From Kappaphycus alvarezii (Eukaryota > Rhodophyta > Florideophyceae > Gigartinales > Solieriaceae): a DNA stretch of 64,000 nucleotides. The notes under the pieces were generated by a model that saw only the letters and a list, made by a program, of their open reading frames with translations, searched no databases and had not been told where the DNA came from. The position numbers were made by a program, and so were the translations under genes. The DNA is taken from positions 248,001-312,000 of the forward strand of contig NADL03000099.1 of assembly GCA_002205965.3 (NCBI GenBank), given 5' to 3'. Positions within the stretch are counted from its first letter, which is position 1. The number at the start of each line of letters is the position of its first letter. This document shows, piece after piece, positions 8,066-64,000 of this stretch.

Positions 8066-8149
8066 TTTTTGAGTCGATTGTGGTTGTCTGGAAAACTATG
8101 GGATAGATTGGATATATCTTCCAAAAGTAAAACACCCAAAACTTTCCCC
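8066..8149 (+). mobile_element. Short LINE-tailed retroposon
   Basis: An 84-bp insertion interrupts the LINE family B C-terminus between codons that are adjacent in the copy at 36.4 kb. It starts TTTTTGAGTCGATTG and ends AAAACACCCAAAACTTTCCCC, the terminus shared with the LINE tails. The flanks share only CCCT. Its length happens to keep the LINE frame open. Related copies lie at 14553, 27261, 28992 and (reversed) 38954. Confidence 0.6.
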
Positions 8150-8915
8150 TAACAGCCACGTTCCGCGCCACATCTGTTAGCATTGCGTAGGCGTCTGGGT
8201 GCCAGGCCCCGAGGGCGGATACAGTGATAGGCGTGAGCCTGTTTCAGGCGGCGTTCGCAATAAAAAATGCATATCTTCTATATTTTGCAGCCTTTGCCGC
8301 GTTGAGGGATGTTAGCGGGTTAAAGGTGCGCCCTCTCCTGTTGGATGGCGCGAGTAGGTTAGCAAAAGTGACATCGAAGAAATCCATGCCTCCAGTGCTT
8401 CATATTTCCCTGATGTCCGGCCTTGTACGATGAAGGTCATCCCTCGGGTCGATGGCAGGGTGACGAGCAGCTTTCTGCAGGTCCTGGGCAAGCAAGTGAA
8501 CTTGGCGGTCATGTCTTCGAATTCTGTGGCCTCCGTGAACGCAGTGCAGGAGATGATCCCCGAAGCAGTCCAGTGTTTCCGGACAATTTCTCCTAGGGCA
8601 CGGTGTGTGTTAGCGGTAAATCGTCGGGAGAAGAGATACTCAGACCCAACTACCCCAAGAAGGAGGTGTTGCAAGCGACAAAAGTGCTACCGTGGTATAG
8701 TCGAACGAACAAAAGGGAGTGTCTTTGGAAGAGAGTTGAGAGGTCTGCAAGCAAGTATGGAAAGGGCAGGGTCTACCACTAATGCTCTGTGACCAGCGTC
8801 GGAAAAAGTTTTTCTTGGGTCGGGAGTTGACTCTCTACTTCCTACTACTCGGGACTTGGCTTGAAGTTGTCTGCCAACTTGCTTGACCTCTCCACGAGGA
8901 AGCAGTTTACGCAGC

Positions 8916-8922
8916 TTATATA
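8916..8922 (-). promoter_or_regulatory. LTR TATA box in the Gypsy-shared segment
   Basis: TATATAA in the context AGTCTATATAAGC. The same box is found in all five copies of this segment (8916, 51136, 53438, 60174, 63686), about 300 nt before the LTR end. It is probably the retroelement promoter, which puts the acidic ORF upstream of it, in U3. Confidence 0.5.
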
Positions 8923-9050
8923 GACTTTTGGCTACCCCTAAAATCCGAACAAAACTACAGAAGGTACCAGGAAATGCATAAAAACGATTTGTGTGGACGA
9001 TATACTCTAAAAAAAAGATACTGAAGAAACAAACAATCACTGAGGTCCTC

Positions 9051-9656
9051 TCATTTTCCATTCTCTAAATCAGATCCAAACAACTCCTCGAAAATATCCA
9101 TGCTGCCCAAGCAGTCCCCATAAATATCTGCGAACGGCTCATAGCTCTCTATTTCCTCCTGGGAGATATCTAAACTACTAAAGATATCTCCATCCGTTTC
9201 CAGCGTCGGCGCTACTTGTTCCATACTCTCCAGTCCAGGCCCCACCACTCCAACACTTTCCATGTCCCCATTTTCCTCATGCACCTCGTCCTCGTCCTCA
9301 TCATCCTCCTCTTCCTCCTCTTCCTTCTCCTCCTTCTCTTCCTTCTCTTCCTCCTCTTCCTTCTCTTCCTCCTCATCATCCTCCCCGTTGTTAACCTCGT
9401 AGACCAATTCAGGGGCTACCCACTCCTCGAAGGTCTCCCCAGCTCCCTCCTCAATGTCCCACTCCCGCCCCTTACCTACCTCCTCCGCCTCATCCTCAAT
9501 AAAAAGGCGACGCACTAATTCGATCACCTTCTTTTTGGTTTGCCGGCGCAGGTAGTCATCATGGTCAGTAGGTCCGAAAGGGAGTAAGGGAATATAGTTT
9601 AGGGGGTTGGGATGGCGATTTTTGGAAAAGACTTTCGAGGGGCATAGATTGTTCAT
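9051..9656 (-). CDS. Acidic LTR-encoded protein, copy 1
   Basis: A 201-residue open frame of unknown function. The N-terminal ~75 residues are mixed and carry a basic-amphipathic stretch (YLRRQTKKKVIELVRRLFI). Residues ~95-130 are almost pure Glu/Asp. The C-terminal ~70 residues are conserved between copies (VGVVGPGLESMEQV, SSLDISQEEIE, ELFGSDLEN). I see no signal peptide, membrane segment or catalytic motif. The acid-rich centre and hydrophobic-acidic C-terminus suggest a nuclear or protein-binding role such as activation, but that is inference. The start is chosen because the paralogue at 50428 starts at the matching position and both lie about 108 nt downstream of TATTTAAA. The frame is intact, unlike nearly all other element ORFs here. 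Confidence 0.75.
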   Translation of the reverse strand: MNNLCPSKVFSKNRHPNPLNYIPLLPFGPTDHDDYLRRQTKKKVIELVRRLFIEDEAEEVGKGREWDIEEGAGETFEEWVAPELVYEVNNGEDDEEEEKEEEEEKEEKEEKEEEEEEDDEDEDEVHEENGDMESVGVVGPGLESMEQVAPTLETDGDIFSSLDISQEEIESYEPFADIYGDCLGSMDIFEELFGSDLENGK

Positions 9657-9764
9657 TTTGGTAGTCTCTGGGGAATGGGAGGCAATAGAGGGTGTTTTGG
9701 GTGTGTGGGGGGAGAGGGATGATGGGTAAATGATCGGGGACGTTTGAAACTTGGAATAAAGGGG

Positions 9765-9772
9765 TTTAAATA
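9765..9772 (-). promoter_or_regulatory. TATA-like box for the acidic gene
   Basis: TATTTAAA on the minus strand, 108 nt before the ATG at 9656. The paralogous gene at 50428 has the same octamer (50313-50320) with 107 nt between, although much of the sequence around it has diverged. Conserved spacing supports a core promoter. Confidence 0.5.
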
Positions 9773-10570
9773 GGCTCCCGGGGCAGGTTCTATAGATTAG
9801 GAATATGTAAAATAAATCTGCAAGGGATTTTGTAGTAGTGAATTTGTGCCATTTTTCTCAAAAAAGCGAATTTGGAGGAGGAGGTAAGCAAAAAGGGGAA
9901 AAGGACTTGACTCGGGATCGATTCAGAGCGGTAAATACAATATAAAATTATCTAGGTAGAATAGATGTAAATTTGGAGAGGACCGCGGTAATGATAAGCA
10001 AGGCTCTCGGAGGACGAGAGAAGACCGGAACTATAAGCAATTTTGGACAAGGGGAGGTAGTACAGTAAACTCAAAGTCTGTAGATGACGGCGACAAAAAA
10101 TCCGTTCCTATCAGCACGCGCCTAACAGTGTGTCCGGAGCGAAAAGAGGAACTTGAGAGTAGTATTGAAGCCAAGTCGAGAATTCGCGGGCGTCGATAAT
10201 AGTCTTCAGACTCGGGCACGGGGATCAGTACGCCCATTCCTTGGCCCCTGGTAGCGCCATCGAAGCACGAAAAGACTGCCTCCTTGCGTCTCCGAGAGGT
10301 ATGCCGTCTTGCACAGCCTCGTGGACTGCTTCCGAGAGTGTCTTTTGCGAAGGTGTTTTGTTTGAGCAAAAGGCACTGAACGGAAGAGACCTTGACTGTA
10401 AGCAGGATTGAGACCAAAGCCGGTGAGCCTCGAGGGCGTCTTCATATGTTGTGCAGTAGCGACGGGTGAAGCGTCGTAAGCGACCAGTCATCAGCTTTCC
10501 AGAAGAGTTTTGCGGACGACTCGCACCATGCCTGGCTAACGAGGTGGTCCACGCCGGCCACGTGCTGCGA

Positions 10571-13016: not shown

Positions 13017-13905
13017 CAGTGCACGAAATTGTTATAAATACACCATCGGTGGGGGCCAAAACCTGTCCTTCAGTGAGGCTGCATTACTAGTCAACTGAAT
13101 TTTTGAAATAAAATAAGGCGCTGAATCCGAATATGGACTCGAAGTAAAGGTAGATCGAATAGAAACGGTTTTTCTTTAAAAAATCGAAAGAAATTCGTTT
13201 AATTACACGAAATTGTATAAGGCACAAGTTATTCAAAAGTATACGGATGGCGGGAAAAGGGGATACGTGCGAAACTTTTTGCGCAAACAAATAGTTTAAA
13301 TCCAGACCTTACCCTCCCAAATGCCCAAAGCTCATTTCATAGCATCAATATGCCTCCGGGAAAGTTACTCACCCAATTTGAAAAAGGCCAGATCTTGGCC
13401 TTGCGCCATGAGTGCGTGACCGTCAGAGAAATTGCTCGTCGTTTGAATCTGTCCCTAGGAGCAGTCGAAGAATTTCTCAAGCGCCCGGGGGTAGTTGACT
13501 CCCGCAAGTCGTCACGGAACGCAAAAAGAATTCCGAAACTTCAAGTTCGTCGACTACTGCAAGTGGCCGCCAAGGGTGAAAAGTCAGCGAGGGAGCTCCA
13601 AAGCGCTCTTGATTTACCGGTCGGAATTCGAAGGGTACAGCAGATATTGAATGAAGCGCCGAATTTGAAGTACAAAAAAATGTTGAAGCGTCCATCAATG
13701 TTACAAAGGCATAAAGACACAAGACTTGGCTGGGCAAAGGAGATGCTGCAGAAAGGGCAGGAATTTTGGCGTTCTGTGGTCTTCTCGGATGAGAAAAAAT
13801 ACAACTTGGACGGGCCACATGGTTTATCAAGTTACTGGCATGACCTCAGGACAGATGAGCGTATGTTTTCTACACGGCACCACTGTATAACCATTTCGTG
13901 CACTG
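13017..13905 (+). mobile_element. Tc1/mariner element, internally deleted
   Basis: An 889-bp unit bounded by inverted repeats matching CAGTGCACGAAATNGTTATA (19/20 between the ends) and by TA on both sides (13015-13016 and 13906-13907), the Tc1/mariner target. It lies inside the family A LINE, whose frame is open across the site. Its transposase gene is present only as an N-terminal half, so the element is non-autonomous. Confidence 0.82.
13350..13905 (+). pseudogene. Tc1-like transposase, truncated
   Basis: The ORF opens at 13350 with LTQFEKGQILALRHE and two helix-turn-helix blocks (REIARRLNLSLGAV; KSARELQSAL...RRVQQIL). It then continues with the catalytic-core start VVFSDEKKYNLDGPHG and YWHDLR. 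The first catalytic Asp is in FSDE. The second Asp and final Glu of the DDE triad are absent, because the frame runs from the ...MFST segment straight into the right inverted repeat and stops at 13958. An internal deletion removed roughly the C-terminal half (Tc1 transposases are usually ~340 residues). The word set NLDGPxG...YWHDLR is, from memory, typical of oomycete and some fungal elements. Confidence 0.75.
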
Positions 13906-13945
13906 TATGCTCCATTTTCCTGATAAGAGCAATCGCAGACGAGGA

Positions 13946-14835
13946 CTACTGTAAGTAGGGTACCCACTTACTGTACATACCCTGAGAATGGAGGTTCTCT
14001 GGAATATACACAATTTCAAGTTGTGGCCTTATGTGTCGCTCTAAACTCCTTCCAACAAACAGTTGGCGTTATTCTGGACGAGCCTCGTCGCGTGACGAGC
14101 GAACAACTTTTGTTGCGCATCAGCAATCGGAACGGCAGCCCGTGCGGCAATGCCAGTCGCCACCCGGTTGGCGAAGTCCCGAGCGGTGGGGCGCCAGCCC
14201 CCCAACGTGGAGAGTGGAAGGGCAATGAAGCGATGCCCAGGACCCTTGGAACGTATCAACTCGGCAAAGCGAGTGTCCTTGCCAAGGCGAGCATGGTTAA
14301 GGGGCTTGAGTGGGCATCGCGCCAGGGAGGGGAGGCGGGCGGGGGGTCAAGGGATGGATGACGGTTGCGTCATAATAGTCCGTGCCCCCGTTCTCTCCAA
14401 GCGCCTTGATGTCCGGGCGAACTGCATGGCCGGGTTGTGGGGGCTCGAGGGCAGGGTGTCGGGCGGCTTTGGAGAGGTCTGCGACAAACAACCGTTTTTG
14501 CGAGTCGTGCCGCCACCCACGGGTGGATCCATAGCCACAGCACATCTCGTGGCGGTATACCCTTTTTGAGTTGATTGCGGTTGTCTGGAAAACCATGGGA
14601 TAGATCGGATATATCTTCCAAGAGTAAAACACCCATACCTTCCCATCTCGTGGTTACCGTACTGGTCCATGAGTGCCGTACATCCCCCCTTGTGGCATTT
14701 TGAAGCTGGAGGAAACAGTGGTACCCGGCAATAGAACTGCAACCACGTCTGGAAATGTTTGGGTGTTGTATGGGTTTACTTGAATGGGTTGGTACACTTA
14801 ATTTTCCTGATAACAGCAATCGCAGACGAGGAAAT
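13946..14835 (-). pseudogene. Diverged LINE fragments
   Basis: The minus strand carries a diverged family B-like C-terminus near 14041-14259 (LPLSTLGGWRP...NANCLLEG) and RLE-like pieces in shifted frames between 14300 and 14500. Near 14.7-14.83 kb it carries a second copy of the LLLSGKxS...THS linker block that also occurs at 13.9 kb. A short retroposon is inserted at 14553. The pieces are too broken for a single gene model. Confidence 0.5.
14553..14643 (+). mobile_element. Short LINE-tailed retroposon
   Basis: A 91-bp insertion bounded by CATCTCGTGG on both sides (14543-14552 and 14644-14653). It starts CGGTATACCC, continues with the TTTTTGAGT...GGTTGTCTGGAAAACC core and ends ACACCCATACCTTCC. 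It is one of the longest copies of the family and helps define the 5' extent. Confidence 0.68.
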
Positions 14836-20022: not shown

Positions 20023-20676
20023 CTAATTACGTCTCTTCTCGCCGAGAAAGGAAGCTCTCCTACGGTGCTTGTTACTGCGCAGATGAGTCTCTAGGTCGAT
20101 CTCCTGGGCGAAGGCAATGTCGCAATCAGTACACAGCGGAGGGTCCTTGCTTTCCCTTAACCTTTGTTCTGCCCTTTGGTGCCTCCCACCAGCCTCGTGC
20201 ACAGCTTTTTGTCCGGAACTGACGAACTCGATGTCGCAGATGCGACAGTGAAACTTAGGCTTTTTGCCTTTCTTATTCCTCTCCCTTCTCTCCCTGTCTG
20301 TTGCGACTTTAAAAGCTGTGGTACAGACAAGGTCAATGCGGGCCTGGGCCCGGGAGGAAGTAGCCACGGAAGAGGACCCAAGGGCGGTTGTACGGTGCGA
20401 CGGACGGGACGAAGGCTGTGCAGAGCGAGGGGGTTGTCTTGAGTAGCTAGAGGCTTGGGAAGGAGACCCGTTCCGGATGGAGACCTGTTCGGATTCTTCG
20501 GACCCCTCCTCGGCCTCGTCGTCAATAAGGGGATGCCTAGGGTAAGCTGTGATGGCAGAGCTCTCCCCTTCGGTAGATCTGTTGACGAGGCCTTCCCTTT
20601 CTTCCCTCCGACGGAGTTCCTGATACCTTTGATGATCCTTCGGGGTGCGTAGTGGCTTCCTTAACCCTCCAACCAT
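20023..20676 (-). CDS. C2H2 zinc-finger protein
   Basis: A 217-residue intronless frame. The N-terminal ~120 residues are hydrophilic and Ser/Arg/Glu-rich, hence probably disordered. They are followed by two C2H2 fingers of the long-linker (U1/matrin-like, often dsRNA-binding) type. The first is CRICDIEF...H...H at about residues 145-168. The second is CTDCDIAF...HLRSNKHRRR at about 183-207. Basic residues follow each finger (RRASFLGEKRR at the end). This suggests a nuclear nucleic-acid-binding protein. The start is the first ATG of the frame. A 71-bp tandem repeat lies 45 bp upstream in the likely promoter, and a T-rich tract follows the stop. No frameshifts, so it is a good host-gene candidate. 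Confidence 0.65.
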   Translation of the reverse strand: MVGGLRKPLRTPKDHQRYQELRRREEREGLVNRSTEGESSAITAYPRHPLIDDEAEEGSEESEQVSIRNGSPSQASSYSRQPPRSAQPSSRPSHRTTALGSSSVATSSRAQARIDLVCTTAFKVATDRERRERNKKGKKPKFHCRICDIEFVSSGQKAVHEAGGRHQRAEQRLRESKDPPLCTDCDIAFAQEIDLETHLRSNKHRRRASFLGEKRRN

Positions 20677-36249: not shown

Positions 36250-37981
36250 GGGGTAAATGTGGGGTGATTTAATATTTGAAAAATATGGTCGGTTGTGGCC
36301 CGGAATATCCTACAGGGTGCCGAGTAATACCTCTTAAATTACTCTAAAAAGCTGGCTCAAGGCCCCCCAGCAGACAGGCTGCGTTGGACATTACGGCCGC
36401 GGCAGCGTGTCTCTGAGTGAGTACCGCACGGACCTTACCATATGCCTCCATCGCCCTAACGCCCACGTTCCGCGCGACGTCGGTTAACACCCTATATGCG
36501 TCCGGGTGCCACCCTCCGAGAGTAGATATGGGAATAGGCACGAGCCTACTTCTCACAGAGGTTGCAATAAAAGAATCATATCATCTATGCTTCGCGGAGG
36601 CGGCCGCATTGAGAGAGGTGAGCGGATTAAACGTTTGGGCTCTCCTGTGGGAAGGCGCCAGCGGGTTGACAAACGTCACGTCAAAGAAGTCCGTACCTCC
36701 ACTGCTTCCCATCGCCCGGATGTCTGGCCTCGTGCGATGAACGCCGTCCCGCGGTTCGACGGCGGGTGACGTGCCGCTTTCTGCAAGTCTTGCGCAAAGA
36801 GGGTCACTTGATTGTCATGCCGTCGAGTCCTGTGCGCACCATGTCTGCAGTGAAGGAGGTGATCCCCGAAGGAGTCGAGGGTTTCGGGGCAGTTACGTCT
36901 TGGGCACGGCACGTCCGAAGGGAACAGCCGGACTTGGCAGAAGTATTGGAACCACACCGCGAATTCGCGGGGGTCAATACTCGTCTTGAGGCCGGGGCAC
37001 GGAGCGCAATACAACCATTCCTTGGCGCCCGGGAGGGCCATGGAGGCGCGGAATGCCTGCCTTCTTTGATCACCGGGGGAGATGCTTTCCTGCACGGCTG
37101 CATGGATTGCGTCTGTTAGTTTCTTTTGCGATGGTGTATTGCTTGAGCAAAAGGCACTAATAGGTAGAATCCTTGACTGCAGACAGGAAAGAGACCAATT
37201 CCGGTGGGCGTCCAAAGCGTCGTTGTAGGTGGCGAGGCTCCTGATAGGAGCGGGCAGAACAACTTTGCACATCCTGTTGGCGGCCGCGCTGGAGGCGAGG
37301 AAGGCGGCCGCGGCGATATTTTTGGCTGAAGTGAATCCGACCCCAAGGGAGGGCCGCTTCGCATCCAGTGGTTTCACGGAAAACCTCTGAATCCAAAACC
37401 CCCCCCCGCTAGTGTGCGGACGCAGCGCTCCATCATATCGTCAAACATGGCAGCGCCCTCGGCGGTGGACGACGTCGGGACTACGCGCAGTAGATAGCCG
37501 AGTTTGCAGACTCCGAAGCAATTTCGGAGCAGCTGGAACGCTATTTGCGTATCCTCGAGGTCAATGATGGCCTCAAGGAACGGTTCGAGAGACTTCACGT
37601 GCGTGGAGAAAGTTCTCTTTGGTGAAGGTCTCTGTGCCAATTGGAGCGTTGAGGACGAGTGTTCCCTCACTATACTCTTGTTTGAGGACGTTCGGGTAGA
37701 GGCGCTGCACGGACTCTGGAGGGGCCGTCGGCCACCAGACCTTGCATTTTGGCAAAGAGAGGTGCAGACCTCTGCTAGTGGCGTCCAGCGAAGAAAGGAT
37801 ATCGACGGCTCGGAGAGGTTGTTCGTGACGCGCGATAATGTACCCGTCATCATGATACCATAGTTGGAGCAAGAGTTGGCCCATGGTCTCGTCTTCCCCA
37901 GAACCAGAGCCCAAGAGTTCCTGGATTTTGAGTATGAGGGGGTGCAGAACTAAGTCGAAAAGAAGCGCACCAAGATTGTCG
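36250..37981 (-). mobile_element. LINE family B, 5'-truncated, nested in the Copia LTR
   Basis: A 1732-bp minus-strand insertion flanked by CTATTTTATGC (36239-36249 and 37982-37992). It begins inside the reverse transcriptase (DNLGALLFDLVLHPLI, then LWYHDDG, the catalytic box). It continues through the thumb, a zinc knuckle CPRRNCPETLDSFGDHLLHCRHG...RRHD, and an RLE (ARGQTSGRW, TFVNPLAPSH-type). The C-terminus is VPIPISTLGGWHPDAY...SNAACLLGGLEPAF, with a stop near 36344 and then a ~95-bp 3' tail ending CCCCACATTTACCCC. Frameshifts near 37610 and at a C9 run (37400) disrupt it. It is the reference copy for family B. Confidence 0.87.
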
Positions 37982-44764: not shown

Positions 44765-44942
44765 AGTATAATTTTATATTACGCTTTCTCATTCAATAAA
44801 TCGCACGAAGCTGCTAATAGTAGACAATGAAAAAAGTTTCCCATAATTCCATTAGTATAATTTTATATTATGCTTTCTCATTCAATAAATCGCACGAAGC
44901 TGCTAATAGCAAACAATGAAAAAATTTCCCATAATTCCATTA
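44765..44942. repeat. 89-bp tandem duplication
   Basis: Units 44765-44853 and 44854-44942, both starting AGTATAATTTTATATTA and ending CCATAATTCCATT. Four or five differences separate them. It lies within AT-rich decayed DNA. Confidence 0.87.
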
Positions 44943-45465
44943 GCTTTATACGATTAACATTCTTTAGTACAGATACAGATTTCAAAAATGCGTATTATCT
45001 CCACGCTTGGATAGATTCAAAATATTTATATATTGCAAATATGAGCAGAAGAATTCTAAATGCAATAAGATAACGTTAATTTGAACCACATTCTCAAATA
45101 TAGCTTTCTACATATTTATCTCCATACGTATCAGGGAGAGCACTCCTACAATATTTTCACTCATTAAAAATATTTCTTTTGCACCGAAAATGGCTAGATA
45201 TGATAGGAAAAGTTTTATAAATATTAAAATTTGAACAAGTTCTCTGAAACTCAATTTATGCAGTACTGCAGTTATTTGAAATAATACAAAATGGATTTAT
45301 AAAGGATAAATTGAGTAAAATGTACTTGAATTCAACCCTATCATTCAAAAAAATCAAACTGTTTTGTTACAGAAGTATTGGTCCAATTACAGGCGACATA
45401 TCAATTTAGTATCTTTAGAATGTATTAAATGTGGATAAAATTTTCTTGTTTGGTATAAAAATAAT

Positions 45466-50312: not shown

Positions 50313-50320
50313 TATTTAAA
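50313..50320 (+). promoter_or_regulatory. TATA-like box for acidic gene copy 2
   Basis: TATTTAAA, 107 nt before the ATG at 50428, matching the 108-nt spacing of copy 1. Confidence 0.5.
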
Positions 50321-50427
50321 GTGCTATAGCATTGTTGCTGAAGCATCACTCCTACCACCGACAATTTGATAAGCTGATTACCCTTTCTGTCAACAACCGC
50401 AACCCCGCTCACCCCTTTTCCAGAAAT

Positions 50428-51006
50428 ATGACGTCAAATCGCCCCTCTGTCTCTATCTCCAAAAACCGCCCTTCCCGTCCCATAAATGGCCTCCGTCTCG
50501 CCGCCTACGGGCCAACCGATGCCGACGACTACATCCGGCGTCAAACTAAGAAGAAAATCATCGAGTTCGTTCGCAGCCTCTTCATAGAAGAAGAGGCGAG
50601 GGAGGTAAGTGAGGATGAGACTGAGAAAGTCGAGGAGGAGAGCGGGGAGTCCTTCGAGGAATGGTTAGCCCCTGAGCTAGTGTACGAGACTCAGGAGAAG
50701 GAAGACGAGGAAGACGAGGAAGAGGAGGAGGAGGAAGAGGAGGAGAAGGAGGATGATGAGGACGAGGACGAGGTGGATGAGGAAAAAGGGGACAAGGAAA
50801 GTGTTGGAGTGGTGGGGCCTGGACTGGAGAGTATGGAACAAGTGGTGCCGACGCTGGAACCGGATGGAGATATTTTTAGTAGTTTAGATATCTCCCAGGA
50901 GGAAATAGAGAGATATGAGGGGCTCGCAGATATTTGTGGGGACTGCTTGGGCAGCATGGATATTTTGGAGGAGTTGTTTGGATCTGATTTAGAGAATGAG
51001 AAATAA
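50428..51006 (+). CDS. Acidic LTR-encoded protein, copy 2
   Basis: A 192-residue intact frame, paralogue of the 9051-9656 gene. Both share GPTD(A/H)DDY(I/L)RRQTKKK, SFEEW(L/V)APELVYE, a long Glu/Asp tract and a nearly identical last ~70 residues (VGVVGPGLESMEQV ... LFGSDLEN). The N-terminal 45 residues differ strongly. An in-frame ATG at 50332 would add 32 residues. I prefer 50428 because it matches the paralogue start and the TATA spacing. The stop at 51004-51006 is followed at once by the LTR-related segment. Function unknown; an acidic nuclear or chaperone-like partner is possible. Confidence 0.75.
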   Translation: MTSNRPSVSISKNRPSRPINGLRLAAYGPTDADDYIRRQTKKKIIEFVRSLFIEEEAREVSEDETEKVEEESGESFEEWLAPELVYETQEKEDEEDEEEEEEEEEEKEDDEDEDEVDEEKGDKESVGVVGPGLESMEQVVPTLEPDGDIFSSLDISQEEIERYEGLADICGDCLGSMDILEELFGSDLENEK

Positions 51007-51449
51007 GAGGACCTCATTGATTGTTAGTTTCTAAAGTATCTTTTGTTTAGAGTATATCGTCCGCACAAATCGTTTTTATGCCTTTTTGTGGTACCTTCTG
51101 TAGTTTTGTTCGGACTTTAGGGGTAGCCAAAAGTCTATATAAGCTGAGTAAACTGCTTCCTCATGGAGAGGTCAAGCAAGTTGGCAGACAACTTCAGGTC
51201 AAGTCCCAAGTAGTAGGAAGTTGAGATTCAACTCCGGACCCAAGAAACATTTTTCCTACGCTGGTCGCAGAGCATCAGTGGTCGACCGTTCCCCTTCCAT
51301 ACTTGCTTGCAGCCCTCTCGACTCCCTTCCCTATACACTCCTTTTTGTTCGTTCAACTACACCACGGTAGCACTTTTGTCGCTTGCAACACCTCCTTTTT
51401 GGGGTAGCTGGTTCTGAGTATCTCTTATCCCGACGATTTACCCCTATCA
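51007..51449 (+). repeat. LTR 3' segment shared with Gypsy
   Basis: About 93% like the matching part of copy 1 by eye. The last ~370 bp also match the Gypsy LTR 3' part, including TATATAA (51136-51142) and the terminal CCCCTATCA. Confidence 0.8.
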
Positions 51450-52716: not shown

Positions 52717-53033
52717 TTGGGCAGCGCTTGCAAGCCGAGTTGCGCAGAAGCAAAGCCAAGTGTCAAAGGCTCCTCACTCACATCGAAGCAAGACCGCGTC
52801 CCAATCGCGGGACAAAGCGCCATTGCAGCGTGGCGGAATTGCAGCGCGGTGGAATAGCGCTTGGTCCCGCGATTGGGACGCGGTCTGGCTTCGATGTGAC
52901 TGAGGAGCCTTTGATACTTGGCTTTGCTTCTGCTCACCCCGGCTTTCAAGCGCTGCAACGTTTCATTGGCCTTGCGTTCCTTTTTCTGGAGGTCGAGTTT
53001 TTCCCTGCGAATGGTTGACCTATTCCCGTTCAT
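52713..53033 (-). other. ORF start with coiled-coil-like N-terminus
   Basis: The minus frame from 53033 reads MNGNRSTIRREKLDLQKKER, then KANETLQRLKAGVSRSKAKYQRLLSHIEARPRP. It is basic and heptad-like, and then runs into the inverted repeat where it becomes its own antisense. It could be the first part of an element gag or ORF1 truncated by the rearrangement. Confidence 0.3.
52717..52958. repeat. Long inverted repeat, ~103-bp arms
   Basis: Arms 52717-52820 and 52857-52958 are about 90% complementary, separated by ~36 bp that itself contains two ATTGCAGCG(T/C)GG(C/T)GGAAT units. Both arms encode the same peptide outward-in (AELRRSKAK-type / GVSRSKAK, then HIEARPRPNRGTKR), so a coding piece was duplicated in inverted orientation. 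Confidence 0.92.
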
Positions 53034-53134: not shown

Positions 53135-53846
53135 TGATAGGGGTAAATCGTCGGGAGAAGAGATACTTAGAACCAACTACCCCAAGACGGAGGTGTTGCG
53201 AGCGACAAAAGTGCTACCGTGGTATAGTTGAACAAATAAAAAGCAGTGTATATGGGAGAGAGTTGAGAGGGCTACAAGCAAGTATAAAAGGGGCAGGGTC
53301 TACCACTGATCTCTGCGTTGCTTAGGAAAAAGTTTTCTTGGGTTGAAGTTGACTCTCAACTTCCTACTACTCGGAGCTTGACCTGAAGTTGTCTGCCAAC
53401 TTGCTTGACCTCTCAAGGAGGAAGCACTTTACTCAGCTTATATAGACTTTCGGCTAATCCTAAAGTCTCAATCAAACATACTAATAACCATAAAACGCAT
53501 TCACGGGAATCGTGTGAACCAGAGAGACCATTAGAAGATATTTCCTCAAGGTAAATATCTAGGTGCCATACCCATGCCAGCCACCCATCGGCCAGGGGTG
53601 GGAATTGATGTGGCCATTATATAGACCTTTCAGAGTCACTCGTAGTATCACCCACAACCTAGAACTGTACTGACATCCACTATGACAGCGTGTCCTAAAA
53701 TAAAAAATCAACCGATGAATTTGCCACACTCACCCAAATTAAAAATATCTTGCAAATTCAAAAACTGTAAAAATATCTTCCCAGTTCCAATACTGTATAC
53801 AATTATGGTCCTCATCTAAATTTTTTCGTGTGCGAATTTGCGCACA
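53135..53846 (-). repeat. Gypsy 3' LTR
   Basis: 712 bp, TG...CA. About ten differences or small indels from the other LTR, all in the part nearest the shared acidic-unit segment; the last ~380 bp (plus-strand order) are identical. Confidence 0.92.
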
Positions 53847-53882
53847 TCACGCCCTCCCGCTCAAGACGAACGTCCCGGCTCG

Positions 53883-55000
53883 TCACTGCTCTTGTTGTTC
53901 TTGTGGGAGTTCTATCCATTCATCAGGGAGAGTATAGGGTTCACTATAAGGATATGGTAGTAGCTCATTTCCAATATGATGAGAGAGTGTGTACCGTGCG
54001 ATGACCGGCTCATCTCCTTGGTCAAGAGTTTCGTAGATTCGGCGTATGGTTTCATAGTGTTCTCTAATGAGCTCCTCCCGTTTCACTTCTCCAAACCTTC
54101 CAAATGTGAGGTAGTAAACGTAGTATGCAAACTTTTCTGGCAACGGGTCCAGAAACGGGTATCTGAAGGAGAAAAAAACTCGCAACATAAGGACTGAGTC
54201 CTCACGAGTAAGGTGCGCCCCGTGAATGGTCTGGAAGCACATGCAAATACTAATGCAAAAAAGGAAATTACTTCTGCTTCTCGAGGGTCCTCTGTCATTT
54301 CGCGAAGCCAACGTCTAATTGGTAGCCGTCCAATAATTAAGGATGCATAGTTTCCCCCTGGGAGACTAGGCGGTGTTTGAGGCGATCTTCTTGGCGATCT
54401 TCCTCGCTGCTCCCGACGCCTTGCCCTCTTCGATGATCCGCCCCGATCACTTGATGGTCCAGCTCGTATCATCATCACGGCCTCGGGAGGATCCTGGTCT
54501 TCGGCTGAGGTTGTATTTCTGAGCGGAGCAACGTAAGGTTCCCATAGAGGATATGGGACCAGTCGATATTCCATATCAGGGGGCAAGCTGTAACCTCTCA
54601 GTCGCACATCTTGGTTGTTCTTGAGAAATACGTAAACTGGACGGATAATGTTCAGATATGTTTGCGACAAGTCTCCGATAGCTACCATTCCATACCTCCT
54701 ATAGAGTAATGATATATGACTTCCACAAACTCTGGACCTGCTTCCGTGAACCTTCCGTTTTGGAATGAGAATAGAACTCTGATCAATAGTCGGAAATCTT
54801 CTTGAGGTAGCAATGGTCCGTTCAACGTACGAAAACATAGGCATATATTAATGTAGAAATGGATGATTACGTGGAGTTCGTAGTAGTCACGCGTAATCGA
54901 GATGATCCATTCCCAGGCCCTTTTTCCTCCCATAGGAATCATTCTATAGTTAAAGATGAGTATGCCTCGTGGTTGCGCATAGTCCTGTGTGAGAAGGAAT
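53883..55000 (-). pseudogene. Gypsy extra 3' domain, duplicated
   Basis: Downstream of the integrase the minus strand encodes two related modules. Module 1 (~54950-54540) has WIISITRDYYE, then FYINICLCFRTLNGPLLPQED, LLIRVLFSF and a LVPYPLWEPYVAP end. Module 2 (~54310-53890) has WLREMTEDPREAEVI, then ISICMCFQTIHGAHLTRED, LMLRVFFSF and a LLPYPYSEPYTLP end. An Arg/Ser-rich, Pro-rich linker (RARRREQRGRSPRRSP) joins them. The function is unknown; position after integrase is where accessory or env-like ORFs occur, but no signal peptide or transmembrane helix is evident. Frames shift between blocks. Confidence 0.6.
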
Positions 55001-56266
55001 TCTTCAGGCCTCTGATGGTAAGGGACCAGACGACGTGCATGGATTGCCCTCCTTGATCTCTTCCCTGAGCTTGAACAGAGCTTATAATGCGGGTGTCTTT
55101 CCTCCGTGACGATGCAAGGGTTCGAGTACTTTGTTTGGAAAGCCGGCCACTTCACAGCCTGTTGCATTGCTTTTCCGTGTGCTACAAGTACTTTAGAGCC
55201 GACTGAGAAAGTTTGGACTGGAGGCTCTTCATCCTTATTTCTTGTCTGTGTTAGCGCGCGGTGTGATCTCCAGCTTTCGGTGGCCATAGTTCGACCTCTC
55301 TACTCTCTTCATCGATAACATTTGTTTCCATATCTCTCTGTAACATTCTAGGAGCTCTTCCGTACATTAGCTCAAACGGTGACCGTCCACTTCTTCCTCT
55401 TCTTCGCCGATAGCCGTATAACACTTTTGGTAAGGCATCTTCCCACTGGATTTCATTCTCGACATAGTTTTCGATATTGATCGTTTGATGGTTCCAACCA
55501 TCCTCTCCGCTTTCCCGTTTGACATAGGAGCATATGCGAGAACTGTCTTTAGCTGAATACCTTTTCTTCCAAGAAACGAAGCAGTGAAGTTGCAGTAAAA
55601 CAAAGTGCGTTATCCGAGATGATCCTTTTTGGAAGACCAAACGGTTCAATTATTTCTTTTTCGATGAATCTCAGGACCACTTCAGCATTGGCCTCCTCAA
55701 CTGCAACTGCTATTGGCCATCCAGTAAGATGTTCCACCCCTATAAGGAGATATTTGTTTCCGGAAGAGGTTTCCTTGAATGGGCCGGCAAAGTCAATTGA
55801 AAGGTTTCAAAGAGACCGGAAACTGGAAAGCCTAGAGTTGTCTTATACTTTCGTATTGGCGTGAATTTTTGACAGTTGTCGCAGCTTTTCACGAATTATA
55901 GACGTCCTTATGGATACTGGGCCACCAGAATCTCTCAGTAACGAATTTTTGGTTGTTTCGAGATCCCAATGCCCTAACTCATCATGAAAAGTCCTCAAGA
56001 TCTTCATTCTTTCTTTCAAAGGGGCCACTAGTCGAGGACCGGCTTTCGTGTGTCGGAAGAGTTTCCCATTCCAATGTAAAAGCCTTTTGATTCCTGCGTA
56101 CCCAATTTCTGTGTTCAATATCAACCTTTCTCATTTCTAGTCCATCCAGGAATTTAATTAGTCCGTGAATATTAGCTTCGTACTCGTTATTGTTCGGCAC
56201 TTGCACCTCGGCAACTCCGACGATGTTCTCGGAAGCTTTTTCATTTGGAATCAGTGGATCCCTCAA
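55001..56266 (-). pseudogene. Gypsy integrase
   Basis: Minus-strand blocks in several frames: FHDELGHWDLETTKNSLL and SCDNCQKF (HHCC zinc region, 56050-55870), then IDFAGPF (first catalytic Asp, ~55800). GVEHLTGWPIAVAVEE and IISDNALCF (second Asp, ~55630) come next, followed by YAPMSNGKAERMVG (catalytic Glu, ~55540) and LMYGRAPRM. A C-terminal SVGSKVLVAHGK...TEERHPHYKL part lies at 55210-55080. All catalytic residues are present, but the frames are broken at least four times. Confidence 0.75.
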
Positions 56267-56886
56267 GCGGGATAGGTATCGGCAGGCTGATTATTGCGTC
56301 CGGGCCTATACACAATTTCAAACCGATATTCTGCGAAAATGTCGAGCCATCGGGCCAAGCGGTGATGTACATCTTTCTTTTGGAATGCTGTCTTAAGTGC
56401 CTGGTGATCAGTTATCAAGACAAATTTCTCGAGTGATAAAAGGTATACGCGAAACTTTTTCAGTGCGAAGACAACAGCGAGCGCTTCTTTTTCGCAGACT
56501 GAGTATCTCCTTTCCGCATCATTCAGAGTGCGACTTGCGAATTGAACCGGGTGTAGTCTTCCGTTTTCATCTTTTTGGGACAAAACGGCACCCAAAGACC
56601 GTTCTGAGGCATCTGTCTCCACAACAAATGGTCTCTTGAAATCTGGATACATGAGCACTGGGGGGACACATAGCTTATCTTTAAGCTCTTCAAATGCGGT
56701 TTGCATTTCCTTGTTCCATAAAAATTTTCCGTTCTTTGTTGTGCTGGCATGTAACGGTGCTGCAGTCTTGGCGAAATCTTTGATAAATCTCCTGTAATAT
56801 GAGGCCAGTCCTAAGAAGCTTCGAACCTCCGTCTTTGAAGCGGGCCTTGGTGCCAACTTGATTTTTTTCGTTTTCTCTGGATCCAC
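56263..56886 (-). pseudogene. Gypsy RNase H
   Basis: A 207-residue open stretch: an ASYYRRFIKDFAKTAAPL connection, then RNase H with VVETDASERSLGAVLSQ (Asp), VCEKEALAVVFALKKFR (Glu), LITDHQAL (Asp) and an IVYRPGRNNQPADTYPA end. It ends at 56263, and the integrase side continues in another frame. Domain complete by motif. Confidence 0.78.
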
Positions 56887-56981
56887 TTTAATTCCCTCTT
56901 GATCGACGATATGACCGAGTAATTGGATAGACGTTTTCGCAAAGAAGCATTTGCTTAACTTAATTTTCAGGCTGTACGCAG

Positions 56982-57734
56982 CTATTTCTCCACCACAGTC
57001 TTGACATGCGATATGTGCTGATCCAAGGTTTTTGAGAATATCACTACATCATCGATATAAACTCTTGCAAATGGAAGTCCTTTCAAAACCTCGTTCATCA
57101 TTCTTTGGAATGTAGCTGGGGCATTCATGAGACCAAAAGGCATCACTTCGAACCTGAATGTACCGGCTTTGCTGGTAAAAGTTGTTTTTTCCTTGCATTT
57201 TTCATCCAATGGAATCTGCCAATAACCAGTGTAAAGATCAATTGAGGTGAAGTATCTCCCGTCCTTCAAGTCCTCGAGGATTTCCTCCATATTCGGAATC
57301 GGAAATCGATCGGGTATCATTCTCTGGTTCAGTTGTCGGTAATCGACGCAAAAACGCAGCTTTCCATCCTTCTTTGGTGCGACCACAACTGGAAATGACC
57401 ATGGGGATGAAACTGGCCGAATGATATCATTTTCCAGCATACTTGTAACATTCTCTGAGATAAATTGGTCATATTTTGGCGGTTGACGTCTAGGCCTGTG
57501 GTAAATTGGTTGAGTATCGGTAAGTTCAAATGAGTGAGTGACCGGTACACTTGCTTGTCTTAAATCTGATACACTCCATGCAATTACTTCGGAAGATGTT
57601 AACATGTCGGATATTATCATTGAGGCGGGGGCTGGAAGGTGCTGTACTTTTTCTTGAATTTCTCCAATTTGGCGCTGGTCCTTTTCTTGATCCTCACCCT
57701 CCAAATTTTGAAGGACCTCTTCCGGCGTGCTCAC
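56982..57734 (-). pseudogene. Gypsy reverse transcriptase
   Basis: A 250-residue open stretch: FELTDTQPIYHRPRR and MLENDIIRPVSSPWSFPVVV leader motifs, CVDYRQLNQ, SIDLYTGYWQIPLDE (first catalytic Asp), MPFGLMNAPATFQR and ARVYIDDVVIFS (YIDD box). All core residues are intact. The frame is lost at 56982 before the connection to RNase H at 56886, which an indel would explain. Confidence 0.82.
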
Positions 57735-57791
57735 ATCTTCAGATATGGAATTCGATATATTCCTTGTTTTCCGTGCAATTGTAATCTTCTT

Positions 57792-58768
57792 TCATGCCCG
57801 AATTCCGTCCTTTGATTCGATATTATCGCAAAAAGAAACACATTCAGGTGTCAAACCTACCCTAGAATTCCATTCTTCATCTGTTTCAAACCCAGAATCA
57901 TAATCGTCCCATGTCATGTTCATTGTCCCCCGAGCGTACCCTTTCTCACTTCCGAAAGTGTTAGTTGGTTCGGAATCTTCGCTGTCATAGCTAGAAGTGA
58001 AATCTTCACTGTCCGTCTCTCTTAGATCTTCCGGATGTGTGCTTTTGTCGAAATCCAGGGGCATCTTCACGTTTCTGCCGTCAACATTAACTGAAACGAT
58101 TTGGTTGCCCAAGTCAATGCAGGTCCCTAGTCTTTCCATGGTAGGACAGCCAATGATTGCATCGAAAGGGAGCTCCGGCATGACGAGAAAGTCTACATCA
58201 ACTTTAGAGTCCCCAAAGAACACGGAAACCTTGTAACAGTGCCCATGCATTTTGAGACGGTTCCATCCGCCACAGTTATTCTTCGAGTAGTTGGAATAAT
58301 TTCAAGACCTAATCTGTCACCAAAGTTTCTGAATAAGGTTTGGAACAGCGCCCGAATCGAAAAGAGCTTGGGTTTGCATTCCCAATACTTTGACTGGTAC
58401 TAGTTTAAGACGTCTTGGTGCTGTCGAGGCCGATTGAAGAAACAGTTTCTTACCCTTAGCGGACTTATTAGACCTGATAATTTTTTTGAGTTCTTTCTCG
58501 CGTCCTCTGCGTCGCCCCTCAAAAGTTGACCAAACGTTATCCCAGTTGGGGCGATGCAAGCTCAGCCACCAAATTGTACTTCTTCACATATTCTAGTACG
58601 TCCTTGGGATACTCTTAAATTTCTTACTCTTTCGTCTTCTTGGCCGAAGTGACTCCCACCCTGGAACAACTTGATCAGCCTCTTGGTTCGAGGAGGTACA
58701 GGTGCTGGGATATGTTCCAGCATTCCATAATCTAGCCTAGGTTTTTCGATAAAAGTTCCCTTCCCCAT
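57792..58768 (-). pseudogene. Gypsy protease region
   Basis: Three frames. 58559-58317 has ALFDSGAVPNLI, the aspartic-protease D-S/T-G-A motif. 58250-57792 has the following VSVFFGDSKVDVDFLVMPEL and IIGCPTMERLG, typical of retropepsin C-termini, then an acidic linker (TDSEDFTSSYDSEDSE). Confidence 0.68.
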
Positions 58769-58828
58769 CCCTTTTTGTCACATTAACTTGACTGATTTCT
58801 TCAGCGATGGATACGTTACCGGCATCCG

Positions 58829-59780
58829 TCAACTTTGATCCTTCTGTTTTGTAAGATTTTCATCTCTGGTCCTGACTCGCTCCTGCGTCCGATAAATTTG
58901 CTCTTCTGTTGTCTTTAGACCAGCAGTTACTTTCATGATGCCCGTACGACCGCACTTTCCACAACGAGTGTTTCTATGTGGATTATCAGGACACCTATTT
59001 GCAAAGTGTCCAGGCTTGTGACAGTAGGAACAGACTTCTGCGGCCTTGGGGGCCCCAGACTGGTTCTTCTTAATGGTAAGAGTAAGGCTTTCCAACTGCG
59101 AGGTTATCATGTCAAGTCGATTATCGAATCGGGTTTCCAACCTTTCTTCCAAGTTTTTGACATCGCTCCTGACTGATTCCAATGCTGCTGCGCTAGTCGC
59201 TGGCCTTTGATAATTCTTTTCAGGATGTACGATAGCAGATGTACGGGTTTCCCTCGGTATTTCACAGTGACTGAAACGTCTCCGAATTTTTGACAAATTC
59301 TACTATGGTACCCTTCAGTTCATTAAAAGTGTGAGGGCCCTTGATGAGGAGGAAATCGGAGAGCCGCTTATCCCCCATCGCCGCCTTACGCAGCATTCCG
59401 TACTTGGCTTGGGCGTTGAACCCAGCCTTTTCATAGAGATCACACAAGTATACCAATGAGCTTAACAAATCGTCGAAGTTGAGCCGGGCCTCTATGGCGG
59501 TACGAATCATCTCATCTGGTTCTACCTCCTTAGCATATTCTTTCACAAGCCACTCACATACCTCACCGAAGTTACGCCCATTCCCGTTAAGAGACCACCC
59601 GTTGATAAACTTGGCCTTATATTTGTGCTTTGCGTCACCATGAAGATAGGCGAAGATACTTTCGGCCTTCTCTTCATCGCTCTTCTCACGCATCACAACG
59701 TTGACATATGTATAGAGAAACTCCTCAACGTCTTCATTCTTGCCCCCTGTGAACGTTATACGAGCAGCGTTGAGATCCAT
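58829..59780 (-). pseudogene. Gypsy gag with CCHC knuckle
   Basis: Starts at an ATG 90 nt inside the 5' LTR (59780): MDLNAARITFTGGKNEDVEE, then a capsid-like helical region (IFAYLHGDAKHKYKAKFING, LLSSLVYLCDLYEKAGF). It is open to 59262. One frame change leads to 59296-58829 with a coiled-coil-like piece, the CSYCHKPGHFANRC knuckle and a second Cys pair (CGKCGRTG). Gag packages element RNA. Confidence 0.75.
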
Positions 59781-59869
59781 GATTACAGAAAAGAAATCCC
59801 CTCGAATGGTTCCCTAAGACTGCTCAACTCGAATACCTCGGGTGCAACCCCCTCCACAAGAGTACCAAA

Positions 59870-60582
59870 TGATAGGGGTAAATCGTCGGGAGAAGAGATA
59901 CTTAGAACCAACTACCCCAAGACGGAGGTGTTGCGAGCGACAAAAGTGCTACCGTGGTATAGTTGAACAAATAAAAAGGAGTGTATATGGGAGAGAGTTG
60001 AGAGGGCTACAAGCAAGTATAAAAGGGGCGTCTACCACTGATGCTCTGCGACAGCTTAGGAAAAAGTTTTCTGGGTCTGAAGTTGACTCTCAACTTCCTA
60101 CTACTCGGAGCTTGACCTGAAGTTGTCTGCCAACTTGCTTGACTCCTCTCAAGGAGGAAGCACTTTACTCAGCTTATATAGACTTTCGGCTAATCCTAAA
60201 GTCTCAATCAAACATACTAAATACCATAAAACGCATTCACGGGAATCGTGTGAACCAGAGAGACCATTAGAAGATATTTCCTCAAGGTAAATATCTAGGT
60301 GCCATACCCATGCCAGCCACCCATCGGCCAGGGGTGGGAATTGATGTGGCCATTATATAGACCTTTCAGAGTCACTCGTAGTATCACCCACAACCTAGAA
60401 CTGTACTGACATCCACTATGACAGCGTGTCCTAAAATAAAAAATCAACCGATGAATTTGCCACACTCACCCAAATTAAAAATATCTTGCAAATTCAAAAA
60501 CTGTAAAAATATCTTCCCAGTTCCAATACTGTATACAATTATGGTCCTCATCTAAATTTTTTCGTGTGCGAATTTGCGCACA
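59870..60582 (-). repeat. Gypsy 5' LTR
   Basis: 713 bp, partner of 53135-53846. Contains two TATATAA-type boxes on the minus strand (near 60354 and at 60174-60180). Confidence 0.92.
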
Positions 60583-60739
60583 TTCAACTGGTGTTGACAG
60601 CAAATCTGGTAAGTTATACATGCAGTGGCAATGTACACATTCAAGAACAGCGTGACTTTTTATCATTGCGTTATCATTTCTGTGAACTCTTTGAGATTGC
60701 TGAAGTTCGGAGTATTTTTAATGTTTAATCTTTTAATTT

Positions 60740-63197: not shown

Positions 63198-63417
63198 CCA
63201 GACGGTCGGATCGGCTCGAGATCAAAGTGAAGAGAACATGAGGGCAGTAAAAGCAGTGCAGGACGCGGATTATCTACAAACTAAAACAGATTGAGTTAAA
63301 GGGATTCTTTTGCAAAGGGCGCCTCAGCAAGTAACTGGTCCCTGGTGCATTTATGAAGAAGACGGTTAACCCCAGCTTGAGGACCCATGGAGCAATTGCA
63401 GGAGATTTCTGGACCAA

Positions 63418-64000
63418 AGCGAGAAGGGATTCTTAGAACCAATTACCCAACAAGGAGGTGTCGCAAGCGACAAAAGTTCTATTTTGTTGGGTAAAAAGAC
63501 GACAGTTAAGAGGACTACAAAGCAAGTTTAGAAGGGGCACGGTCTATTTGTGATGCTCTGTGACCAGCGTAAGAAAAATAGTTCTTAGGCCTGAAGTTGA
63601 CTCTCAACTTCCTACTACTCGGGACTTGACCTGAATTTTTCTGCCATCTTGCTTTACCTCTAGAAGAGGGAGCAGTTTACCCAGATTATATAGACTTTTT
63701 TCCTAACCTTAAGTCTCAAATAAATATACTGAGTACTACAAAATGCATCAAATGGAATCGTGTGAACGAGAAAGACAGAAGATAATATCAGGATAAATAA
63801 CTAGATTTATTTCCTAATGTCTTTATCATCGAGATCAGAGCCAAACAACTCCTCCGAATATCTATTTCACCCAATAAGTCCCCATAAATATCAGGGAACG
63901 GTTCATAATTCCCCGTTGCCTCCTGAGAAATATTAAAACCACTGAGGATTCTCCCATCCGGTTCCAAAGTCAGGACCACCTGGTCCATACTTTCCGGCCC
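63418..64000 (-). mobile_element. Acidic-protein LTR-type unit, copy 3 (partial)
   Basis: The shared LTR segment (from about 63418; TTATATA at 63686-63692) is followed, in minus-strand sense preceded, by the C-terminal end of the acidic ORF, and runs off the window. The LTR part resembles the Gypsy LTR more closely than copies 1 and 2 do, extending into GGAATCGTGTGAAC and AGGATAAATAACTAGAT. The terminal ~17 bp of the LTR are missing or diverged. Confidence 0.7.
63788..64000 (-). pseudogene. Acidic LTR-encoded protein, copy 3 (C-terminal part)
   Basis: Encodes MDQVVLTLEPDGRILSGFN, ISQEATGNYEPFPDIYGD and, after a small deletion that shifts the frame, EELFGSDLDD-like residues ending near 63815. 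The rest of the gene lies beyond the window. The frame break indicates that this copy is not functional. Confidence 0.6.

Follow-up and report, generated by a model that had tools for sequence, protein, structure and literature searches.

A solo long terminal repeat (LTR) in a 64,000-nucleotide stretch of the Kappaphycus alvarezii genome (contig NADL03000099.1, positions 248,001 to 312,000; hereafter the window) carries an open reading frame (ORF) of 201 amino acids (aa) in its U3 (unique 3') part. Almost certainly, this ORF is a protein gene that a Ty3/gypsy element encodes in its U3 and that is under selection. The LTR is referred to as copy A, and the related LTRs in the window as B to E. 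Their coordinates are collected in Table 1.

An earlier note, made from the letters of the window alone, had described the unit at 8608-10127 as a mobile solo LTR with a gene inside. The unit is indeed a solo LTR, the remnant of a Ty3/gypsy element. It starts with TGTTAG, ends with CTAACA and is bordered by the perfect GTGTG duplication (8603-8607 and 10128-10132) that the note had reported. Copy A interrupts a long interspersed nuclear element (LINE). When A was removed in silico, the joined LINE flanks aligned gaplessly across the junction to an empty LINE paralogue within 36441-37240. The junction is spanned by a 99-codon frame on the minus strand, so the claim that the LINE reading frame is restored also stands. 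The sense strand of copy A is the minus strand because the full element flanked by LTRs C and D, itself on the minus strand, sets the orientation. On this strand the intact 201-residue ORF (9656-9051) and its TATA-like box TATTTAAA (9772-9765) are found as claimed. The ORF precedes TATATAAG (8922-8915) and therefore lies in U3; the earlier placement upstream of TATATAAG is true for the unit read in this direction.

The genome assembly (336 Mb, 884 contigs) was screened for further copies. A nucleotide search with unit A found at least 40 places including A (41 rows; the best 40 of 5412 first-look candidates were scored). Duplications were counted in 39 near-complete copies, namely A and every other place but one (38 of 39). 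The one left out is C786 (two pieces, L048); B, E and a further L025 fragment were likewise not counted. An exact 5-bp duplication beside the TG start and after the 3' end is found in 22 of the 39 copies, and 30 copies have a duplication with one mismatch at most. Shuffling the 3' flanks among copies gave a mean of 0.275 exact duplications (maximum 2) and 3.3 with up to one mismatch (maximum 8). Copies across the genome do show the TG...CA ends and 5-bp duplications whose absence would have spoken against the earlier note, and the duplications are far above the shuffled control. Nine copies lack even a one-mismatch duplication, and seven of these adjoin a primer-binding site (PBS) or a G-run: TTTGGTACTC or a close variant (primer-binding side) adjoins L011, L021, L023 and L046, and a run of at least five G adjoins L010, L037 and L043. 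L012 and L047 show neither duplication nor PBS nor G-run. L042 has a one-mismatch duplication plus a G-run, and the one-mismatch duplication of L019 sits off the expected end and is probably due to chance. Four of the 39 copies have the PBS immediately after the LTR, as do L049, L053 and L054. Among the matches scored, the ORF-bearing LTRs closest to A are 92-93% identical to it, and those closest to L054 are 95% identical to L054. Shifted ends of A with 6-bp or 8-bp duplications were considered and ruled out, as the copies have the TGTTAG start and 5-bp duplications in common.

Paired LTRs of full Ty3/gypsy elements elsewhere in the genome carry the same ORF region, which bears out the solo-LTR assignment. 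The full element C595 has two ORF-bearing LTRs in the same direction, 7.6 kb apart, which differ at 5 of 1519 sites (0.33%); its outer flanks are ACATC and ACAAC (one mismatch). In C549 the two LTRs with the ORF region differ at 3 of 1474 sites (0.20%) and the outer flanks are GATTG and GATTG. Both elements have TTTGGTACTC after the 5' LTR and a G-run before the 3' LTR. A DNA transposon or miniature inverted-repeat transposable element reading of A, suggested by the short inverted ends and the 5-bp duplication, is ruled out by such paired LTRs with PBS and G-run. The ORF itself is damaged in these two elements: both LTR ORFs of C595 have a net loss of 2 bases, and C549 retains 188 open codons but has a shifted start region. 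The ORF is intact in L053 and L054, where a PBS follows immediately, and in L051, next to a G-run. Three more same-strand LTR pairs, 7.5-7.6 kb apart, were found on contigs C78, C734 and C325 (pairing inferred from spacing alone).

The coding region between the LTRs was read in C595 only, of the two full elements. Its proteins match those of the C-D element in the window, with 96% identity over 167 residues in gag, 90% over 265 residues in the reverse transcriptase (RT) region and a further match of 57% over 261 residues. Pfam searches of the C-D element gave RVT_1, RT_RNaseH and RT_RNaseH_2 above the cut-off and a zinc knuckle below it; two frames of its post-RNase H region gave no integrase hit in Pfam. 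The frame after RNase H in C595 has Integrase_H2C2 above the Pfam cut-off and the rve core just below it (30.9 vs 32.6). The Ty3/gypsy assignment is based on RT and RNase H in the C-D element and on the integrase after RNase H in C595. No 5-bp duplication was seen at the outer flanks of the C-D element.

The ORF occupies LTR positions 472-1077, TATTTAAA is at LTR position 356, 116 bp before the ATG, and TATATAAG is at LTR position 1206. The position of TATTTAAA was checked in a 41-row alignment (the 39 copies, L048 and B), and 37 rows have the box there. The distance to the ATG is 115 bp in B and 117-119 bp in L051, L053 and L054. The U3 of B before the ORF is only 42-61% identical to that of A (76-base steps, many gaps), yet the TATTTAAA spacing is constant. 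We infer that one LTR would hold a full transcription unit. We tried 24 TG sites for the 5' end of B and obtained one candidate (49978, one mismatch), which is about chance level (0.4 expected).

A genome search with the ORF protein gave 171 matches, of which 150 are listed (the best 150 of 10773 candidates scored), with identities of 66-100%. The ORF is dispersed and is not a host gene at a fixed place, the outcome that would have spoken against the earlier note. Among the 150 matches listed, 78 (hand count) have no stop in the matched stretch, in which frameshifts are possible. The whole frame from ATG to stop is open in 9 of the 41 aligned copies (A, B, L013, L025, L027, L032, L038, L041 and L046) and in three of six further loci, L051 (212 aa), L053 (199 aa, with a short different tail) and L054 (224 aa). 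L031, which is full-length only via offsetting indels, and L030, which has lost its stop, were not counted as intact. Some frameshifts fall in the repetitive acidic run of the protein, and assembly errors could explain part of them. Matches to residues 1-124 only were considered as a second protein with another C-terminus and rejected: in the two that were read, L051 and L054 (the latter listed as 1-131), the C-terminus is the usual one and the acidic run is longer, and the match is taken to be split at this run.

Frame-specific constraint was measured as the ratio of nonsynonymous (dN) to synonymous (dS) divergence. Between A and B, outside the acidic run, the true frame has dS 0.665 and dN 0.202, a ratio of 0.30 (Fisher p 2e-7). 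The corresponding ratios are 0.82 and 1.50 in the two remaining sense frames and 1.02, 0.49 and 1.64 in the antisense frames. Intact-copy pairs with dS >0.12 show dN/dS of 0.29-0.56, and values for less divergent pairs reach 1.24; the range is 0.44-0.83 when one partner is L031, whose frame is shifted internally. The N-terminal half has dS 2.18 and dN 0.344 in A/B, dS 1.37 and dN 0.200 in A/L051, and dS 1.60 and dN 0.225 in B/L051, the large dS values being near saturation. Its dN/dS is 0.14-0.28 (three old variants; 16 intact-protein pairs with dS >1 plus A/B). The C-terminal half has dS <0.3 and ratios of 0.25-1.5. These distances indicate that the N-terminal half is old and that the copies have come to share the C-terminal half recently. 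Changes private to single copies number 193 nonsynonymous, 75 synonymous and 11 stop, compared with neutral expectations of 193.4, 74.0 and 11.6; they fit neutral decay, as expected in dead copies. Variants found in at least three copies lean synonymous (22 vs 16.2 expected). The divergence patterns indicate that the ORF is under purifying selection, in lineages that transposed.

Residues 1-55 of the A protein are basic (isoelectric point 9.7), 43 of the 75 residues at 56-130 are acidic, and the last 72 residues have a net charge of -18 with 20 residues from F, W, Y, L, I and M. The layout of basic, acidic and acidic-hydrophobic parts is common to A, B and L032, the three proteins computed. 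All 12 intact proteins contain a 39-residue C-terminal stretch with a net charge of -10 to -14 and seven to eight W/F/Y/L residues (best stretch of each, no control set). We take this composition to resemble that of acidic activation domains. Homologue searches found none for the whole protein (8000 candidates with most words in common), for residues 1-92 (7 candidates) or for residues 126-201 (3 candidates). The protein showed no significant match to two gag frames of the C-D element (E 14 and 2.8) and no Gag domain in Pfam.

When the acidic run is set aside, L051 and L032 are 94-100% identical over LTR positions 1-380 and 685-1292, and only 60-82% identical over 381-684, a stretch that takes in the leader and roughly 70 codons from the start of the ORF. 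Since the drop is confined to 381-684, the N-terminal segment has been swapped for a diverged one between TATTTAAA and the acidic run. B has a third N-terminal version, together with a different upstream U3. By these comparisons the N-terminal segment is exchanged between LTR subfamilies.

The C and D LTRs (713-714 bp) have no ORF. Their 339-bp U3 was searched in the genome, and all 40 scored copies are 100% identical (the best 40 of 1054 first-look candidates); of these, 22 can be grouped into 11 pairs on the same strand, with a spacing of 6.6-6.8 kb. The ORF-less LTR is, by this measure, recently amplified. Eight substitutions and several small indels separate C from D; only two of these sites lie outside the R-U5 (repeat and unique 5') half, and none is in the U3 query region. 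As the differences are concentrated in R-U5, the C/D divergence gives no clean age. In copy E and L025:7500-8845 an ORF-less-type U3 start is followed by a degenerate ORF and then by R/U5. The C-terminal part of the degenerate ORF is 58-64% identical to the A and B proteins in both; its N-terminal part is 45-46% identical in L025 and not matched in E. The ORF-less LTR matches L025 with positions 1-188 and 286-714, and E with positions 1-194 and 286-694. The simplest reading would be an ancestral ORF that U3 lost in a branch which then multiplied, the reverse order being less probable. Such a loss fits use of the protein in trans, later independence from it, or escape from a self-limiting factor.

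What the protein does is a separate question from its being a gene. In the reading that we put first, at about even confidence, the LTR protein would be a trans-acting activator of transcription of the LTRs of its own family. One LTR, even a solo LTR, would suffice for its expression, from an mRNA that starts at TATTTAAA and ends in R/U5. The protein would act in trans, in the nucleus, on family LTRs. Its exchangeable basic N-terminal segment would be the targeting part and its acidic-hydrophobic C-terminus the activation part, which raises element transcription. The ORF-less branch, after loss of the ancestral ORF from U3, would have spread via protein supplied in trans or via independence from the protein. 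A bolder extension is possible and is offered tentatively: the LTR may be a free-standing regulator gene of which each solo LTR is a dose, with a swapped N-terminal cassette and a common activation part, the subfamilies recognising different U3 types, and the gene-shedding branch may be a superspreader that parasitises or escapes the protein.

Several points weigh against selected activator function. The form that was amplified recently lacks the ORF entirely, an argument against the protein being required in cis, and the young elements C595 and C549, with damaged ORFs, show that it is not needed there. The selection data include one antisense frame with a low ratio (0.49); this frame and the sense frame have their third positions at the same sites. 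The dS values of the N-terminal half approach saturation, the C-terminal half gives little selection signal, and the private and common variant classes do not differ significantly (p 0.075). All hits of the ORF protein in the Pfam profile search are below the cut-off. The proposed function is read from composition, and acidic low-complexity proteins may do many things.

The amplification of the ORF-less LTR, apparently from an ORF-bearing layout, and the transposition of young elements with damaged ORFs would also suit a self-limiting factor. Each new or solo LTR would then add a dose of inhibitor, and the ORF-less branch would have escaped. Self-encoded restriction is known in Ty1 (PMC8458377). 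However, Ty1 p22/p18 is Gag-derived and the U3 protein has no significant similarity to the family gag frames, selection for a self-inhibitor would be harder to maintain than selection for an activator, and a trans-supplied activator would also account for the burst. We consider a self-limiting factor somewhat unlikely, though a serious candidate. It is improbable that the element took up the ORF from the host and that the gene merely rides along in U3, with no part in the element cycle. In favour of such a passenger, the ORF is dispensable in cis and the three protein searches found no homologue outside, but purifying selection over dS >1 is not expected of one, and among the 150 matches listed of the 171 no distant single host gene stands out (surroundings of part of them were read). 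Acidic runs also occur in histone chaperones, and Pfam recognised no DNA-binding family in the conserved C-terminus; the protein could act on the particle or integration complex (e.g., with its acidic tract on Gag, integrase or histones) instead of on transcription. Its own box and the U3 location suit an early regulator, and we regard a particle or integration role as quite improbable. The open frame can hardly be a by-product of a purine-rich tract: a run of glutamate and aspartate codons leaves a frame open and many copies are broken, but selection is frame-specific outside the acidic run, the run varies in length without frame loss in the 12 intact proteins, and the TATTTAAA spacing is constant.

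Retroviral genes that lie in or overlap U3 include sag of mouse mammary tumour virus (MMTV), lentiviral nef and foamy virus tas/bet; foamy Tas transactivates its own promoters. Like these, the ORF is a protein gene in U3, and so at both ends of a provirus, upstream of TATATAAG, the presumed LTR promoter. Unlike the vertebrate retroviral genes, it belongs to a Ty3/gypsy element, lies wholly inside U3, has its own TATA-like box and is present in >100 dispersed copies. We therefore compare it with the retroviral U3 genes as something that may work alike, without filing it as a member; the likeness is one of layout, not of direct sequence comparison.

The LTR subfamilies of crapaud in Podospora differ in U3 before the TATA box and have a conserved 3' half (PMC10787394). 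They recombine, and full copies with two LTRs of different subfamilies are described. The exchange of U3 before the TATA box is common to crapaud and the present family; here an ORF lies inside the exchanged U3, unlike in crapaud, whose LTRs are 339-443 bp with a variable U3 of <200 bp and for which the available portions of the source name gag and pol ORFs and describe no LTR ORF. In the C78 pair, the first LTR is L054 (C78:159762) and the second is at C78:167381; these ORF-bearing LTRs are 7.6 kb apart on the same strand and only about 93% alike. This suggests one element with different LTR subfamilies at its two ends, as in crapaud.

Extra proteins beyond Gag and Pol, often without known function and lost in some relatives, are found in plant LTR retrotransposons with additional ORFs (aORF; PMC7264820), in Retrosat2, whose ORF0 is upstream of the gag-pol ORF (PMC3485330), and in bdelloid elements, where the extra ORFs are described as ORF3 (PMC5408684). 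The present ORF is like them in this respect; unlike it, none of them is described in the available text of these sources as placing the ORF inside the LTR. Ty1 p22/p18 functions in copy number control and is made from a transcript started within gag (PMC8458377). The likeness is that of an element-encoded trans-acting protein, as proposed in the self-limiting alternative, and the difference is that the present protein has a separate U3 ORF. As far as the accessible text of the open-licence literature goes, we found no Ty3/gypsy element described as having a protein gene within its LTR.

The usual view of LTRs is that they are non-coding control sequence, and that a solo LTR is a dead relic. 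Solo LTRs of this family could be intact small genes that supply an element protein after the element is gone. With ORF-bearing, cassette-swapped and ORF-less LTRs in one genome, gain or loss from a self-encoded regulator would become directly addressable. Evolution between subfamilies is not neutral in such LTRs, which calls for caution.

Table 1. Features of the ORF-bearing LTR family and the copy A insertion site (window positions).
Feature	Position	Strand	Evidence or remark
Copy A, ORF-bearing solo LTR (1520 bp) of Ty3/gypsy element	8608..10127	-	TG...CA ends, 5-bp duplication; homologous LTRs elsewhere adjoin PBS or G-run
Target-site duplication GTGTG, left of A	8603..8607	.	perfect
Target-site duplication GTGTG, right of A	10128..10132	.	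perfect
LINE flank, broken by A	8147..8602	-	sequence alignment
LINE flank, broken by A	10133..10440	-	sequence alignment
LINE paralogue without insertion (empty site)	36441..37240	-	gapless alignment to joined A flanks
201-aa ORF in U3 (protein P0001)	9051..9656	-	open frame; purifying selection
N-terminal part, residues 1-88	9393..9656	-	residues 1-55 basic; contains most of the segment exchanged between subfamilies
Acidic run, variable length, about residues 89-131	9264..9392	-	comparison of intact proteins
Conserved acidic-hydrophobic C-terminal part, about residues 132-201	9054..9263	-	comparison of intact proteins
TATTTAAA box, 116 bp upstream of ORF start	9765..9772	-	same word in 37/41 aligned copies
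TATATAAG, presumed promoter of element main transcript	8915..8922	-	33/41 aligned copies; U3/R border presumed downstream
Copy B, divergent ORF-bearing LTR	50313..51449	+	TATTTAAA at 50313; intact 192-aa ORF 50428-51006; LTR 3' end 51449
LTR C, 3' LTR of ORF-less full element	53135..53847	-	LTR pair
Internal region of ORF-less element	53883..59813	-	gag frames with zinc knuckle, RT, RNase H, further frames; frame breaks
LTR D, 5' LTR of ORF-less full element	59870..60583	-	U3 60245-60583 of the recently amplified type
Copy E (L029), divergent LTR with degenerate ORF, runs past window	63401..64000	-	homology to A from 63421 onwards

Other features were noted in the window. Upstream of the C LTR there is a long inverted repeat (52721-52956), in which 236 bases match their own reverse complement at 87%. 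A Tc1/mariner-type transposase frame is found at 13350-13955 (HTH_Tnp_Tc3_1 above cut-off). The frame at 20023-20673 encodes C2H2 zinc fingers (zf-met and zf-C2H2_jaz above cut-off) and is possibly a host gene. At 44765-44943 a unit of about 90 bases occurs twice in direct tandem, the two being 96% alike.

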